This document shows, in pieces, positions 21,766 through 33,289 of a stretch of DNA of 64,000 bases. Source of the stretch: Opitutia bacterium (lineage in GTDB: Bacteria > Verrucomicrobiota > Verrucomicrobiia > Opitutales > UBA953); the NCBI GenBank assembly GCA_003569245.1, contig BGOM01000005.1, forward strand, positions 1 through 64,000, given 5' to 3'. Under the pieces are notes generated by a model. It searched no databases. It was given only the letters and a program-made list of their open reading frames with translations, and was not told where the DNA came from. The position numbers and the translations under genes are program-made. Numbering within the stretch: the first letter of the stretch is position 1; each line of letters begins with the position of its first letter.

Positions 21766-22467
21766 ATGCGCAAACTCCTAGCCTTCCTCAACCGCCCTGC
21801 CAGCCGGGGTAATTTCGCGCCGCGAGCCGCGAATTCCGCGCCGTTCAAGATCCTCGTCTGCCTGCTCATCACCGGCGTCGTCGTCGTGGCCGCGGTCAAC
21901 GAGTACGCCACGAACAAGTATCTGAACGTCGGATACACCCCCGACCAGCCGGTCGCGTTCGACCACTCCTTCCACGCCGGTCCCGATTCGGTCCTGGGGC
22001 TGGATTGCCGCTACTGCCACAACTTCGTCGAGAAGTCCCCGCACTCCAACGTTCCCACCGCGAACACCTGCTGGAACTGCCACAGCATCGTCAAGCCCGA
22101 CAGCCCGGCCCTCGCGCTGGTCAAGAAGAGCGTCGAGACCGGCGAGGCCATCCGCTGGGTCAAGGTCCACAAGGTGCCCGACTACGTCTACTTCCCGCAC
22201 TCCGTCCATGTGAACCGCGGCGTCAGCTGCGTCGAATGTCACGGCCGCATCGACCAGCAGGTGGTCGTCGGCCAGCAGAAGTCCCTCAACATGAGCTTCT
22301 GTCTCGATTGCCACCGCAACCCCGAGCAGGTGCTCCGTCCCTTGGACAAGATCACCGACCTTGGCTACAAGGCGGCCACCCCGGCCGACCAGGTCAAGCA
22401 GGGCACGAAGTTCGTGCACGACTGGAAGATCAACCCGCCCCAGAGCTGCTCCGGCTGCCACCGCTAA
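21766..22467 (+). CDS. actA: Alternative complex III subunit ActA, pentaheme cytochrome c
   Basis: A 233-residue membrane-anchored multiheme cytochrome. One membrane segment covers about residues 28-46. Five CxxCH heme sites follow: CRYCH (81), CWNCH (102), CVECH (155), CLDCH (179) and CSGCH (228). In ACIII, a quinol:electron-acceptor oxidoreductase unrelated to the bc1 complex, ActA with ActE carries electrons out of the complex on the periplasmic face. Five hemes match ActA of other bacteria. It is the first gene of an act operon in canonical order A-F, spaced 18 bases from actB. Confidence 0.95.
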   Translation: MRKLLAFLNRPASRGNFAPRAANSAPFKILVCLLITGVVVVAAVNEYATNKYLNVGYTPDQPVAFDHSFHAGPDSVLGLDCRYCHNFVEKSPHSNVPTANTCWNCHSIVKPDSPALALVKKSVETGEAIRWVKVHKVPDYVYFPHSVHVNRGVSCVECHGRIDQQVVVGQQKSLNMSFCLDCHRNPEQVLRPLDKITDLGYKAATPADQVKQGTKFVHDWKINPPQSCSGCHR

Positions 22468-22485: not shown

Positions 22486-25860
<3,375 letters not shown>

Positions 25861-25882: not shown

Positions 25883-27292
<1,410 letters not shown>

Positions 27293-27311: not shown

Positions 27312-27854
27312 ATGAACGAACGCAACGAACGCATCCACGGCGTGGCCTGCACCTTCCGCAAGGCCTCCGATGTCTACCACGCGGCCGAGAAGGTCCGCGA
27401 CGCCGGCTGGAAGCAGTGGGACGTCCACACTCCCTTCCCGATTCACGGCATGGACCAGGCCATGGGCCTCCCGCGCTCCCCGGTGCCCCGCCTGACGCTG
27501 CTCGGCGGCCTCACCGGTTTCGTCACCGGCTGCCTCCTGACCTGGTACACCAACTCCTTCGACTATCCGATCGTCGTCGGCGGCAAGCCCTTCTGGAGCG
27601 TGATCTTCCCGTTCCCCGTCCTCTACGAGTGCACGATCCTCTTCGCGGCCTTCGGCACGTTCTTCGGGCAGTTCATCTTCAACCGCCTGCCGCGCCATCA
27701 CCACCCGCTCTTCGACCACCCGCAGTTCGCGCGCGTCTCCGACGACACCTTCATGATCGTCCTCGAGGCCACCGACCCGAACTTCCACGTCGATGAGTCC
27801 CGCAACTTCCTGCAGTCGCTCGGCGGCCAGGAGATCACCATCGTCCGCGACTGA
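27312..27854 (+). CDS. actD: Alternative complex III subunit ActD (DUF3341)
   Basis: A 180-residue protein with two membrane segments near residues 57-78 and 98-122. The N-terminal soluble part has KASDVYHAAEKVRDAGWKQW and VHTPFPIHGMDQAMG, the most conserved signature of this subunit. ActD is a small structural subunit of ACIII at the membrane. It lies between actC and actE with short spacers (19 and 8 bases). Confidence 0.95.
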   Translation: MNERNERIHGVACTFRKASDVYHAAEKVRDAGWKQWDVHTPFPIHGMDQAMGLPRSPVPRLTLLGGLTGFVTGCLLTWYTNSFDYPIVVGGKPFWSVIFPFPVLYECTILFAAFGTFFGQFIFNRLPRHHHPLFDHPQFARVSDDTFMIVLEATDPNFHVDESRNFLQSLGGQEITIVRD

Positions 27855-27862
27855 ACCCACCC

Positions 27863-28579
27863 ATGAGCCGCTACCTCGCTTTCCTCGCCGTCGCCACGCT
27901 GGCCCTCGTCAGCTTCCTCGGCTTCCAGGGCAAGACCTCCAAGGACACCCCGGTCATGGTGTTCGACGACATGGACTACCAGGCCAAGTACAAGCCGCAG
28001 GGGGAGAACCGCTTCTTCGCCGACGGCCGGGACGCCCGGCCGCCCGTGGCCGGCACCGTCGCCCGCGGCGACGGCCTCGCCCCGCTGACGGTCTTCGCCG
28101 CCGATTACCGTCGCGCGGAGTCCCTCAATCCTTCGTTCGTCACCGGCAAGGACGCCACCGGCGCCTTCCTCGCGGCCTTCCCGGCCAAGTCCCTCGCCCT
28201 CCTCCCGGGCGGCGAGCTCGCGCCCTTCCGGGTCGACGCCCGCCTCCTTGAGCTCGGCCGCGCGAAGTACCAGGTCTACTGCGCCGTCTGCCACGGCGCC
28301 GCCGCCGACGGCAACGGCATCATGAAGGTGCGCTCCGCCGTCGAGGGCGACGCGGCCATCGCGACCATCGCCAACCTCCAGGCCCCGCTCTTCCGCGCCT
28401 ACCCGCACGGCCAGATCTACGACGTGATCGCCAACGGCAAGAACACGATGCAGCCCTACGGCGACAAGCTCTCCCCCGAGGAGCGCTGGGCCGTCGTCGC
28501 CTACCTCCGCGCCCTCCAGCTGTCCCAGGCCATGCCGGCCGACCTCGTCCCCGCCGCCGTGAAGGCCACCGTCAAGTAA
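27863..28579 (+). CDS. actE: Alternative complex III subunit ActE, monoheme cytochrome c
   Basis: A 238-residue cytochrome c with an N-terminal export or anchor segment (YLAFLAVATLALVSFLGF). One heme site, CAVCH, occurs at residues 140-144, and the axial Met is probably in NTMQPYGDKL. The region DDMDYQAKYKPQGENRFFADG is typical of ActE. It passes electrons from ActA toward a soluble or oxidase-bound cytochrome. Confidence 0.95.
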   Translation: MSRYLAFLAVATLALVSFLGFQGKTSKDTPVMVFDDMDYQAKYKPQGENRFFADGRDARPPVAGTVARGDGLAPLTVFAADYRRAESLNPSFVTGKDATGAFLAAFPAKSLALLPGGELAPFRVDARLLELGRAKYQVYCAVCHGAAADGNGIMKVRSAVEGDAAIATIANLQAPLFRAYPHGQIYDVIANGKNTMQPYGDKLSPEERWAVVAYLRALQLSQAMPADLVPAAVKATVK

Positions 28580-28586
28580 TTCGCAC

Positions 28587-29847
<1,261 letters not shown>

Positions 29848-29855
<8 letters not shown>

Positions 29856-30600
29856 GTCCTCCCAACCGCGGGAACCCCGCCCCCTGATCCCGGCCCAGGT
29901 CGCCTCCTGGCTCGGTCTCGTGGCTTTCCTCGCCGCGGCCGCCGTCGTCGTCGGTTACGCCTACTTCGCCACCCGGCCGACGACCAACAGCGACGCCGAG
30001 CGTCGCGCCGCCCAGAAGGCGCTACGCGCCAAGACCGAGACGGAAGGGCAGGCCCTCCTCGCCGGCGCCGCCCGCAACGCCGACGGCACCTTCCGCGTCC
30101 CCGTGGAGACCGCGATGTCGGTCATCGCCGCCGACCCGAAGGCCCTCGCGTCCTTCAAGCCCGCTCCGGCGGCTCCGGTCACCGCATCCGCGCCGGTCGC
30201 CACCGCCTTCGTCGCCGCCGACGCGGACACCCTGAAGCGCGGCGCCGCCGTCTACGCCCGTACCTGCCTGGCCTGCCACCAGCCGACGGGCAAGGGTCTG
30301 CCGCCCGTCTTCCCGTCGATCGCCGGGACCCCGATCGTGGTCGGCAATCCCGAGCTCCCGATTAAGTTCATCCTCCAGGGACTGATGGGGCCCATCACCA
30401 TCGAGGGTACCACCTACAATAGCATGATGCCGCCCGTGGTCGGGGTTTCCGACCAGGATATCGCCGACGTCCTCACCTATGTCCGCCAGAGCTTCGGCAA
30501 CAAGGCCAACGCGGTCACCCCGGCCCAGGTCAAGGCCGTGCGCGACGCCACCGCCGGCCGCACCGCTCCCTGGACCACCGCCGAACTCGGCCTCAAATAA
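29848..30600 (+). CDS. Membrane-anchored monoheme cytochrome c following ACIII
   Basis: A 250-residue protein with one membrane segment near residues 17-40, a linker rich in Ala/Pro, and a class I cytochrome c domain. The heme site is CLACH (140-144), and the probable axial Met is in YNSMMPPV. The linker segment TFRVPVETAMSVIAADPKAL looks like a conserved amphipathic piece. The gene overlaps actF by eight bases. In many ACIII clusters the next genes encode an SCO protein and a caa3 oxidase; here this cytochrome is followed by a cbb3-like set. Its role is probably electron transfer between ActE and a downstream acceptor. Confidence 0.85.
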
Positions 30601-30621: not shown

Positions 30622-32064
30622 ATGAGTCAGGAAAATCGTCCCGCCCGCCCGTCCGGTCGCCCGCCCGAGTCCGGCTTCGCCCGTCTCTCGCGCACCGAGT
30701 CCGGCCTCCGCGGCCCGTTCCTCTGTTTCTTCGCCTCCGCCGTGCTCTGGCTCGTCGTGGCCTCCGTGCTCGCGTTGGTCGCCGCCGTGAAACTGCACCG
30801 TCCGGACTTCCTCGGCGCCTGCGAACTGACGACCTACGGTCGCGTCACCGCCGCCGCCCGCGACACCTTCGTCTACGGCTGGGGCTTCAACGCCTTGTTC
30901 GCGGTCAATTTCTGGCTGATGGCCCAGCTGGGTCGCTTCGAGTTCCGCAACGGCTGGCTCGCCACCCTCGGCGGCGCCACTTGGAACCTCGCGCTCACCT
31001 ACGGCGTCGTCCAGATCATCCGCGGTGAGCTCGGTGGCTTCGCCTTGCTCGACCTCCCCCGCGAGGTCGGCCCGGTGCTGCTGCTCGCTTTCCTCCTGTC
31101 GGCCCTCTGGTCCGTCGTGGCCTACGCCCGTCGCCCGGGCGGCCAGAACTTCGTCTCCCAGTGGTACATCGTCGGCGCCACGTTCGCGCTGCCGCTCGTC
31201 TACCTGCTCGCGCAGCTGATGGTGCTTTGGTTCCCGACGGTCGGCACGGTCCAGGCTCTGGCGCATGCCTGGTTCGTCCAGAACCTGCTCTTCCTCTGGT
31301 TCGGTGCCTCCGCCTTGGCCGCCGCCTACTACTTCGTCCCGAAGATCCTGGGGCGTGCCCTCGGGCATTACTACCTCGCGCCCGTCGGTTTCTGGACCCT
31401 CTTCCTTTTCGCCGGCCTCGGCGCCCCCGCCGCGCTGCTCGGTGCCCCGATCCCCATCTGGCTCCAGTCCGTCGGTGTCGTGGCTTCGGTCCTCGGTCTC
31501 GTGCCGGTCGTCGTCCTCGCGATCAACTTCCTCTCCACGCTGTCCGTGGACGGGGGCTGGTCCCGTTCGTGGAACAGCACCACGCTCCGCTTCGTCGTGG
31601 TCGGCATCGTGAGTTTCCTCCTCTTCGGTCTCCTGACCGCGGTCTGCTCGACCCGCGACCTGAGCGCGACGCTCGCCTTCACCAGCTTCGCCGAAGGCCA
31701 GGTCCAGCTGCTGACCTACGGCGCCGCGACCATGATCCTCTTCGGCGCCAGCTACTTCATTCTCCCTCGCCTGACCGGTTCGCTCTGGCCCTCCTCCAAG
31801 TTGGTGCACGTCCACTTCTGGTCCGCGTTCCTCGGCTTGCTCATCGCCGTCGGCGCGGCCTTGGTCGGTGGCTGGCAGGCCGGTCAGCAGCTCGCGACGC
31901 CGGCGGTCTCCGCCGCCCAGGTCGCCGCGCAGTCCGCCCCGTGGGCGCTGGCCGGTTCGCTCGCGGCCCTGCTGCTGCTCATCGGCCACGTCGCCTTCGC
32001 CCTCAACGCCTTCGGCATGATCCTTTCTTCCACCACCCCGACCTCCGATGGTCGCTCCGACTAA
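30622..32064 (+). CDS. CcoN-like heme-copper oxidase subunit I homologue lacking all metal ligands
   Basis: A 480-residue, about 12-segment membrane protein alignable with CcoN, the catalytic subunit of cbb3 oxidase. Examples are GWGFNALFAVNFWL, AYYFVPK, NFLSTLS and VHVHFW for the family's FGGNALFA, YYFVPK, NGMMTLS and NAHFW. The ligand histidines are all changed. Low-spin heme: A79 (in GRVTAAARD) and Q362. Copper B: Q220 (WFVQN for WYGHN), A270 and A271 (PAALL for PHHLH). High-spin heme: Q360 (GQVQ for GHVH). The tyrosine that cross-links to copper is also absent. It therefore cannot reduce oxygen by the known mechanism. The open frame is intact and lies 21 bases after a cytochrome gene and 9 before the CcoO-like gene. 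I infer a structural or electron-wiring role. Confidence 0.88.
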   Translation: MSQENRPARPSGRPPESGFARLSRTESGLRGPFLCFFASAVLWLVVASVLALVAAVKLHRPDFLGACELTTYGRVTAAARDTFVYGWGFNALFAVNFWLMAQLGRFEFRNGWLATLGGATWNLALTYGVVQIIRGELGGFALLDLPREVGPVLLLAFLLSALWSVVAYARRPGGQNFVSQWYIVGATFALPLVYLLAQLMVLWFPTVGTVQALAHAWFVQNLLFLWFGASALAAAYYFVPKILGRALGHYYLAPVGFWTLFLFAGLGAPAALLGAPIPIWLQSVGVVASVLGLVPVVVLAINFLSTLSVDGGWSRSWNSTTLRFVVVGIVSFLLFGLLTAVCSTRDLSATLAFTSFAEGQVQLLTYGAATMILFGASYFILPRLTGSLWPSSKLVHVHFWSAFLGLLIAVGAALVGGWQAGQQLATPAVSAAQVAAQSAPWALAGSLAALLLLIGHVAFALNAFGMILSSTTPTSDGRSD

Positions 32065-32073
32065 TCCGGCCCC

Positions 32074-32595
32074 ATGAAGAACCTCAACCTCCTCCTCGCC
32101 GGCGTCTTCTTCTGCGTCGCCGCCGTCTGGACCGGCCTGCTGGTCACCGCCCAGGTCCAACTTGGCTCCCTCGGCCGCGCTCCTGCCGAGGAAGGCGGTC
32201 CGCTGTTCCCGGCGCGCGAGCCCGGCCTCGCCATCCAAGGTCGGGCCGTCTACCTCGACCTCGGTTGCGTGGCCTGTCACACCCAGCAGGTCCGTCCGGC
32301 CGGTCAGGGTAGCGATATCGCCCGCGGTTACGGTGTCCGCCCCAGCGTAGCCCGCGACTACGTCCTCCAGCCGCAGGTGCTGCTCGGTCAGCGCCGCGTC
32401 GGTCCGGATCTCGCGAACTACGGCGCCCGCGCCAAGTCCGACGCCGAGCTCGCCGCTTTCCTCGCCGCCCCGGCGGCCGGCGTCAGTCATCCGCCTTACG
32501 CCTTCCTCACGGCCGAGCGTTCGGCCGCCCTGGTGGCGTACCTCAAGTCCCTCCGCCAGGACTACTCCTCGCCCGAAGCCAAACTGAAGCAGTGA
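32074..32595 (+). CDS. CcoO-like monoheme cytochrome c
   Basis: A 173-residue protein with an N-terminal membrane anchor (residues 5-27) and one heme site, CVACH (65-69). The flanks GCVACHTQQVRP and GQRRVGPDLANYG match the CcoO signatures CxxCHSQxIRP and KRTGPDLxRVG. Normal CcoO uses a methionine in an NMPAY-like motif as second heme ligand. This protein has no methionine except the first, and H139 (SHPPY) stands at that place, suggesting bis-histidine ligation. It is shorter than typical CcoO. It is the natural partner of the CcoN-like protein encoded just before it. Confidence 0.85.
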   Translation: MKNLNLLLAGVFFCVAAVWTGLLVTAQVQLGSLGRAPAEEGGPLFPAREPGLAIQGRAVYLDLGCVACHTQQVRPAGQGSDIARGYGVRPSVARDYVLQPQVLLGQRRVGPDLANYGARAKSDAELAAFLAAPAAGVSHPPYAFLTAERSAALVAYLKSLRQDYSSPEAKLKQ

Positions 32596-32599
32596 TCCC

Positions 32600-33289
32600 A
32601 TGAACGACCGTAATCGTCATCCCGACCGCAACCGTCCGCCCCAGGGCAACCCTGGTCCCGCCGCCGACGGCTTCTCCGACGGCCGCCTCGTGGAGGTCCA
32701 CTCGCTGCTCGCCCGCGAAAAGGAGGAGCCGCGCGAGGGCTTCGCCCTGACGCCGATCTTCATCGTCTTCCTCTTCTGCGGTTTCGGTTTCTGGGGCGGT
32801 CTCTACCTTACCCGTCACAGCGGGAACTTCGCCTCCACGGCCTTCGACGTCAACGCTCCCAAGGTCACGGCCGCGACCGGCCCCGTCGAGTTCGAGCCCG
32901 ACGCCGCCAAGGGCGAGAAACTCTTCGTCGCCAACTGCGCCGCCTGCCACCAGGCCACCGGCCTCGGCGTGCCCGGTGCCTTCCCGCCCTTGGCCAAGTC
33001 CGCCTGGGTCGCGGGTGCGGAAGACCGCCTCATCAAGGCGATCCTGGTCGGCCTAGCCGGCGAAATCGAGGTCAACGGCGTCAAGTATAACGGCAACATG
33101 CCCAACGTCGGCGCGGCCCTCAAGGACGCGCAGGTCGCGCACATCGCCACCTACGTGCGCCAGGCCTGGGGTAACACCGCCGGTCCGGTCATGGACACGA
33201 AGGTCGCCGAGGTCCGCAAAGCCATCGGAACCCGCGGCCAGTACGCGCCGGCGGACCTCCTGAAGGAGCACCCGCTCGAGGCCAAGTAA
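32600..33289 (+). CDS. Membrane-anchored monoheme cytochrome c, CcoP-like position
   Basis: A 229-residue protein. A hydrophilic cytoplasmic N-terminus rich in Asn, Arg and Pro leads to one membrane segment near residues 50-70. A cytochrome c domain follows with heme site CAACH (113-117) and axial Met in YNGNMPNVG. The N-in anchor followed by a periplasmic cytochrome resembles CcoP, but only one heme is present instead of two. The domain is similar to the cytochrome at 29848-30600, suggesting duplication. It ends the respiratory operon and is followed by a strong hairpin. Confidence 0.85.
   Translation: MNDRNRHPDRNRPPQGNPGPAADGFSDGRLVEVHSLLAREKEEPREGFALTPIFIVFLFCGFGFWGGLYLTRHSGNFASTAFDVNAPKVTAATGPVEFEPDAAKGEKLFVANCAACHQATGLGVPGAFPPLAKSAWVAGAEDRLIKAILVGLAGEIEVNGVKYNGNMPNVGAALKDAQVAHIATYVRQAWGNTAGPVMDTKVAEVRKAIGTRGQYAPADLLKEHPLEAK

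Follow-up and report, generated by a model that had tools for sequence, protein, structure and literature searches.

A CcoN homologue without metal ligands, encoded with alternative complex III in Opitutales

The alternative complex III locus and its CcoN homologue

The window, that is, the whole 64,000-nucleotide stretch analysed here (Opitutia bacterium, contig BGOM01000005.1), holds a complete alternative complex III (ACIII) cluster, actA to actF in order, closely spaced and, like all genes of the block, on the + strand. It opens with ActA (21766..22467), a QrcA-like multiheme cytochrome c with five CxxCH motifs in its translation and matches to the cytochrome c7/c3 families, followed by the molybdopterin-oxidoreductase-like plus Fe-S protein ActB (22486..25860), the NrfD-like membrane subunit ActC (25883..27292; PF03916, E 1.9e-23), ActD (27312..27854; PF11821, 209.8 bits), the monoheme cytochrome c ActE (27863..28579), and the membrane subunit ActF (28587..29855), which is without a Pfam match and was named from its position and its similarity to the same-position gene in other loci. 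Four more genes of the + strand lie 3' of ActF. The first encodes a membrane-anchored small one-helix protein with a fused cytochrome c domain (29848..30600; heme motif CLACH, Cytochrom_C match at 130-214), the second a CcoN homologue (30622..32064), the third a CcoO-like cytochrome c (32074..32595) that matches FixO/PF02433 and keeps its CVACH, and the fourth, which closes the block, a CcoP-like, membrane-anchored cytochrome c with one CxxCH (32600..33289). At most loci, the small helix protein (29848-30600 in the window; see also L150 and L080) has a conserved RIPIxxAMxLT-like motif.

The CcoN homologue is encoded by an undamaged frame of 480 codons, as an earlier note on this DNA had described; its reverse strand is likewise free of stops, taken here as a by-product of high G+C. 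The protein scores 117.5 bits against Pfam COX1 (cut-off 34.8) and 103.6 bits over nearly the whole of the TIGR00780 ccoN model, below the equivalog cut-off of 583, under which intact members of the family also fall (e.g., 253.5 bits in G010). A phmmer search of the PDB sequences (E up to 1) returned five matches, all to cbb3 subunit I, the best with E 8e-20. An AlphaFold2 model built from 65 family rows has a mean pLDDT of 92.6 and a pTM of 0.92, and its top seven Foldseek matches are cbb3 subunit I (TM 0.86-0.88), with ba3 oxidase and nitric oxide reductase coming after them. Together with the alignment of all ligand blocks, gapless both against CcoN from the PDB and against canonical CcoN from the same order, this ranking identifies the protein as a degenerate heme-copper oxidase and not as a member of another 12-segment fold, the alternative that the earlier note had named as a case against itself. 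By its sequence and modelled fold it is a C-family heme-copper oxidase subunit I, with the 12-helix fold closest to cbb3 subunit I and a CcoO partner that carries heme c (PF02433 and CxxCH), the Met motif of the latter being altered.

The metal sites of such a subunit are gone from this protein. None of the six ligand histidines is left, and the active-site tyrosine is gone too (A79, Q220, A264, A270, A271, Q360, and Q362 stand in their place), which bears out the earlier reading of these segments. Positions 79 in TM2 and 362 in TM10 are presumably the low-spin heme histidines of canonical cbb3, 220, 270, and 271 we take to be its CuB histidines, and 360 and 264 presumably its heme b3 histidine and cross-linked tyrosine; thus the low-spin heme b pair, the heme b3 ligand, the CuB trio, and the cross-linked tyrosine are all missing. 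Canonical CcoN rows read HHHHHHY (six histidines and tyrosine) in 19 of 20 cases, the remaining row (L134) being unaligned over the sites. Judged from these residues, the protein cannot reduce O2 by known chemistry, and it probably serves another purpose.

Two states of one gene, and repeated loss of the ligands

Among the matches listed for the 273 genomes of the order, the CcoN-like protein occurs in 176, ActD in 174, and both in 169, counts that were compared by hand and in which a few weak CcoN-like matches may be canonical CcoN. The gene order ActA-F, CcoN-like, CcoO-like is found in all loci read, as far as the contig extends. Most loci have an extra cytochrome c 3' of the CcoO-like gene; none was detected in L073 and L165 (family f22). 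No ACIII locus of the order without the CcoN-like gene was found among the untruncated loci read, G249 and G180 aside. This co-occurrence and conserved place are those expected of an ACIII subunit, and the earlier note's proposal that the gene is conserved beside ACIII in relatives stands. We considered whether some ACIII operons do without the gene, as five genomes (G106, G131, G180, G218, and G270) have ActD listed and no CcoN-like match, and set this aside for the four that were read (all but G180), in which the contig ends 86 to 1,499 bases past the ActD match. The loci of G009 and G205 are also cut off, and the G249 contig ends about 1.1 kb beyond ActF. The CcoN-like family is present in other families of the class as well.

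Two states of the gene exist at this locus. The 122 distinct rows comprise 49 intact forms with six histidines and tyrosine, 70 altered forms, and 3 that are truncated at the sites; in 35 of the altered rows, identity to the window protein reaches 48% or more, so the window's own group is over-represented among them. Within the order, 47 of the 117 homologues at the ACIII locus that can be scored at all seven sites are intact, and the two other intact rows (L196 and L198) come from other families of the class. Homologues at the same locus that keep the histidines were what the earlier note had set as a refutation; they exist, while its main proposal, a retained protein that is not an oxidase, stands. 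These intact homologues show that the altered protein descends from an apparently working ACIII-linked oxidase, with the loss repeated. In the tree rows, families f3, f4, f6, f15, f20, f21, and f22 are intact, f2, f5, f8, f9, f12, and f19 altered, and f1, f11, f14, and f24 mixed; within f1, to which the window belongs, intact forms occur in genera g3 and g5, with the altered L081 also in g3. Two further intact HHHHHHY CcoN-like genes, L146:1243-2847 and L144:1465-3366, lie at non-ACIII loci of G024 and G135; they branch outside the ACIII-linked family, and a CcoO-like frame adjoins each.

Relatives at the same position have lost the same ligand sites, each ligand being kept in 19% or less of the altered forms. 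Among the 59 altered tree rows, in which L207 has a gap at one of the scored sites, 23 keep no histidine, 28 one, 3 two, 4 three, and 1 four. The partial sets, that is, three histidines in L074, L075, L076, L078, and L203, four in L168, and the low-spin pair in L200/L201, would suit a protein that is still wholly or partly redox-active and binds heme or copper through its remaining or other residues. This reading is quite improbable, given that the heme b3 histidine and all three CuB histidines occur together in none of the 59 rows, the tyrosine survives in 1 of 59, and the neighbors of the cofactors are lost as well. In L200 and L201 (family f31; HNQRYHS), both low-spin heme histidines are kept and the CuB and heme b3 ligands are gone; to judge from these residues, a b-type electron carrier is possible there. 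At sites 79, 220, 360, and 362, roughly half of the altered rows or more have glutamine in place of histidine, a count in which the window's group is over-represented, and they do so in several families. It may keep a hydrogen bond at the former ligand sites; alternatively, as glutamine is one base change from histidine, the replacement may be mutational.

The tree built from concatenated ActB-F of 87 loci has the genome family codes as clades, which argues for vertical inheritance of the operon, and on this tree there are at least 11 changes of state between intact and altered. For a rooted ActB-F tree with 94 loci, of which 59 are altered and 35 intact, unordered parsimony gives 12 changes, and loss without regain gives 16 loss clades, or 15 with nodes under 95 collapsed and 11 with nodes under 100 collapsed. 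These counts assume that the gene moves with its operon, and with quick trees and long branches the exact numbers are soft. The data show repeated ligand loss within the class, about 15-16 times, or 11 if fully supported nodes alone are counted. A single origin was suggested by the first CcoN-family tree, which grouped 41 altered rows, and was rejected, being contradicted by the operon tree and by likelihood tests; long branches may explain that clustering. The one ligand-less, ACIII-linked clade that the earlier note had proposed to look for is likewise given up, since intact and altered forms are mixed on the trees and a constraint uniting all 43 altered rows is rejected by the CcoN-family data (p-AU 0.0285). 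Holding together family f1, with its intact and altered members, gives a likelihood 18 log units above the free tree (p-AU 0.71). The same constraint on f14 is 43 log units worse and unrejected (p-AU 0.07), a cost at which some gene replacement may have taken place.

Selection on the altered gene is purifying. The window gene has a dN/dS of 0.068 against L034 (97% identical, partial) and of 0.167 against L033 (79% identical), and these values, together with the losses at the same sites in relatives, indicate that it is neither a chance frame nor a dead gene; it shows neither the broken frame nor the near-neutral selection of a pseudogene, in keeping with what the earlier note had concluded from the frame. 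Finite dN/dS values were obtained for 21 of 23 altered pairs, with 20 of them at 0.05-0.25 and one outlier (L101/L163, 60% identical) at 0.67, and for 10 of 12 intact pairs, at 0.02-0.10. Altered forms are under looser constraint than intact ones, yet far from neutral. Their faster evolution, seen also in long branches, is what genes decaying toward deletion would show, and L113 of G199, a copy of the intact type, is broken into two frames; however, ActB on the G199 contig is broken as well, a sign of assembly errors. Decay is very improbable, as no internal stop was seen in the CcoN-like matches among those listed for genomes of the order, whole families are altered in the sample, the gene is present in every untruncated ACIII locus of the order that was read (with the same two genomes set aside), and its altered form is retained in relatives with genomes of just 1.3-1.5 Mb.

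Retained residues, partner cytochromes, and other oxidases

Part of the protein outside the metal sites has been kept. Among 67 positions common to canonical CcoN and the intact family, 24 persist in 90% or more of altered forms. The same holds for 21 of 76 positions whose conservation reaches 95% or more in the intact family without doing so in canonical CcoN; W43, G86, P146, W217, Y236, P276, P278, W280, and F353 are examples of residues kept throughout. The near-cofactor residues common to canonical and intact forms fare differently, with Ser 253 kept in 17%, Tyr 332 in 29%, and Thr 228 in 16% of altered forms, where Gly, Ala, and Phe are the most frequent replacements. These three residues presumably have a channel role in the oxidase. 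Their loss disfavors the suggestion of the earlier note that the protein might be a proton-path subunit, moving protons or ions for ACIII through the old oxidase channel. The complete membrane fold of the model would allow such a path, and Tyr 236, 237, and 250, Lys 241, and Asn 302 are kept in 94-100% of altered forms; with the polar residues near the active site replaced, we regard it as having little probability.

The CcoO-like partner has changed along with the ligand sites at one heme-site residue. CxxCH is present in all 119 CcoO-like rows, and the tyrosine of CxYCH is found in 47 of 48 intact but only 2 of 70 altered rows. Across phylogenetically independent pairs, this tyrosine follows the ligand state in 6.2 of 8 and never runs against it (median p 0.03, range 0.016-0.063). 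The axial-Met motif is present in all 33 intact and in 29 of 42 altered tree rows, and its loss has no significant link with ligand loss on independent pairs (1.5 of 8). The CcoO-like protein of the window lacks the tyrosine of CxYCH and reads VSHPPY in the axial-Met segment, against the SxMPPY type, and in part of the window's genus this segment is deleted. Thus, in the window and in the 13 altered rows without the motif, the CcoO heme may be a poor electron carrier. A heme has been gained elsewhere: of 87 loci, 17 have a CxxCH in the small helix protein encoded between ActF and CcoN, and every one of them belongs to the window's genus group; outside this group the protein is mostly about 80-170 aa long and without CxxCH, as surveyed with a crude script that took a wrong frame or none in a few loci (e.g., L097 and L113).

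These cytochromes bear on two readings. In the first, the altered protein is a pure assembly or stability factor that folds or anchors ACIII, and the CcoO-like cytochrome and its neighbors are no longer electron carriers. The 13 rows without an axial-Met motif and the deletions within the genus would fit, as would the conserved positions being those distant from the cofactors; the CxxCH kept in every CcoO-like row, the axial-Met motif retained in the other 29 altered rows, and the heme c domain gained by a neighboring subunit in the window's genus group do not, and we consider this reading unlikely, though clearly more plausible than the others set out above. In the second, toward which we lean with some confidence, an ACIII-bound cbb3-like oxidase has repeatedly lost its metals and become a scaffold for c-type cytochromes that probably relay electrons to an aa3-type oxidase. 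The two readings differ on whether the cytochromes still carry electrons.

Other oxidases in the same genomes give this scaffold reading its proposed acceptor. A-type COX1, called at over 420 bits, is absent from 6 of 32 genomes with the intact gene and from 2 of 48 with the altered one, and present in the other 26 and 46, respectively (Fisher p 0.054, with 13 further genomes left out), so that the lack of an A-type oxidase is weakly tied to intactness. The genome of the window has an A-type COX1, with CoxA on another contig, and no canonical CcoN; no CoxA match was seen inside an ACIII operon in the order. Outside the order, a CoxA match starts downstream of the CcoN-like one, at a distance of no more than 3 kb, in six of eight genomes (G310, G498, G485, G429, G511, and G491, the last with an intact gene; G283 and G379 are the other two), and in L232 the order is small gene, CcoN-like, CcoO-like, cytochrome c, CoxA, CoxC, further small frames, and CoxB. 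At the other end of the series, the intact gene is the sole COX1 match in G010, G079, and G143 (genus g15 of f11; 99, 98, and 97% complete), and cytochrome bd subunit I was not found in these genomes; of the heme-copper and bd types compared, the intact form should therefore be the working terminal oxidase there, as far as gene content tells. Several Opitutales genomes also encode a second type of weak COX1 homologue, about 480-520 aa long (L236:1454-3007, L238:1655-3118; G126 C1:4498533, G080 C34:30056), directly preceding a frame for a heme-copper oxidase, about 570-600 aa long and perhaps of the B family.

The scaffold reading can be put as a sequence of steps. An ancestor within the class would have had a complete C-family oxidase, made of CcoN, CcoO, and cytochrome c, encoded with ACIII and probably built onto it. 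Once another oxidase took over, the ACIII-bound enzyme would have been free to lose its active site, and hemes b and b3 and CuB would have been abandoned in many descendants; almost all of these have a further heme-copper oxidase, mostly of the aa3 type. The 12-helix protein would have been kept because it holds c-type cytochromes against ACIII, namely, the CcoO-like protein, mostly a following cytochrome c, and, in the window's genus, a third heme c on the small helix protein. It would now serve an enlarged ACIII as a membrane scaffold without cofactors, and from this complex electrons would leave ActA/ActE via the periplasmic hemes to a separate aa3 oxidase; the physical complex, the electron route, and aa3 as acceptor are what we infer. 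This natural series from intact to empty forms could reveal what an oxidase gives ACIII beyond O2 reduction and whether ACIII needs a bound partner for electron delivery.

Verrucomicrobial methanotrophs and known systems

The family extends to genomes that we take to be verrucomicrobial methanotrophs, namely those of family f30, in which pmoC/amoC family genes are found in six of six. In the three f30 genomes read, the ACIII-adjacent CcoN-like protein keeps one of the six histidines, the sites being of the SESHFVS type in G310 and G399 and ADAHQTA in G498; the three genes lie at L232:859-2301, L231:5063-6526, and L209:6942-8498. The AlphaFold model of the G310 protein has a pLDDT of 89.7, and its first matches are cbb3 subunit I (TM 0.81-0.84). 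Going by these residues, the ACIII-adjacent copy in the three genomes cannot hold catalytic metals in the known way. A second, canonical cbb3 was considered and rejected, as TIGR00780 has a match over its cut-off in none of the six genomes; the remaining weak COX1 match in G310 is presumably NorB-like, judged by eye from its motifs. One f30 genome (G279) is without a CcoN-like family match.

Published work describes these genes as oxidases. According to PMC8498564, citing Refojo 2010, ACIII genes directly adjoin cbb3-type oxidase genes in verrucomicrobial methanotrophs, as in Opitutaceae, and passages of PMC8498564 and PMC10205796 count the cbb3 type among the three terminal oxidases of these methanotrophs. 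An exception is made in PMC8498564 for ‘Methylacidithermus pantelleriae’, with which the absence of the family from G279 agrees. ACIII-adjacent genes of this kind are currently interpreted as high-affinity cbb3 oxidases. In PMC6688271, the ACIII-linked cbb3 genes of Methylacidiphilum are related to high oxygen affinity. An ‘unknown group’ of heme-copper oxidases, with Muntyan 2015 as its source and with which the intact family may coincide, is mentioned in PMC5492636. We read the published methanotroph cbb3 gene, from its sequence, as the ligand-poor protein. The earlier note knew of no description of the arrangement; a C-type oxidase beside ACIII is in print (PMC8498564), whereas no description of the ligand loss was found in the open-licence literature searched, chiefly by listings and passages. 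Two Methylacidiphilum papers, searched by terms, gave no expression values of oxidases for genes of this kind. Tentatively, we suggest that an oxidase has become a metal-free structural and electron-wiring part of ACIII more than 10 times in one class, as an ACIII-pseudo-cbb3-aa3 assembly, and that the methanotroph ‘cbb3’ is such a part and no oxidase. If true, this would be parallel pseudoenzyme evolution within a core energy-converting membrane complex.

Compared with canonical cbb3 CcoN (PDB 3mk7 and 8smr), the window protein shares fold, length, helix order, an adjacent CcoO-like partner gene, and about 22% identity, but it lacks the histidine ligands and the tyrosine and falls in a separate clade. 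It is also unfused to CcoO, whereas the canonical copies compared have open frames of about 770-860 aa, which are taken as CcoNO fusions, and its block has no diheme CcoP gene. The ACIII plus C-type oxidase of Opitutaceae and verrucomicrobial methanotrophs (PMC8498564, citing Refojo 2010) has the same operon and presumably belongs to the same family; it has been described as a cbb3 oxidase, whereas many of the lineages sampled here are without an active site. In the ACIII-aa3 supercomplex of Flavobacterium johnsoniae (Sun 2018, as cited in passages of PMC8498564, PMC8361435, and PMC8552683), ACIII is tied to an oxidase, as is proposed by analogy for the present system; there, an A-type oxidase binds ACIII, whereas here a metal-free C-type module is encoded with it. 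In some other families of the class, the CcoN-like module and aa3 genes stand in one gene run with ACIII. ACIII already has cofactor-free membrane subunits in the NrfD-like ActC and ActF. The present protein resembles them in being without cofactors in an ACIII setting; however, in contrast to the NrfD-like subunits, which passages of PMC8076601 treat, it belongs to a different fold family, that of a degenerate heme-copper oxidase.
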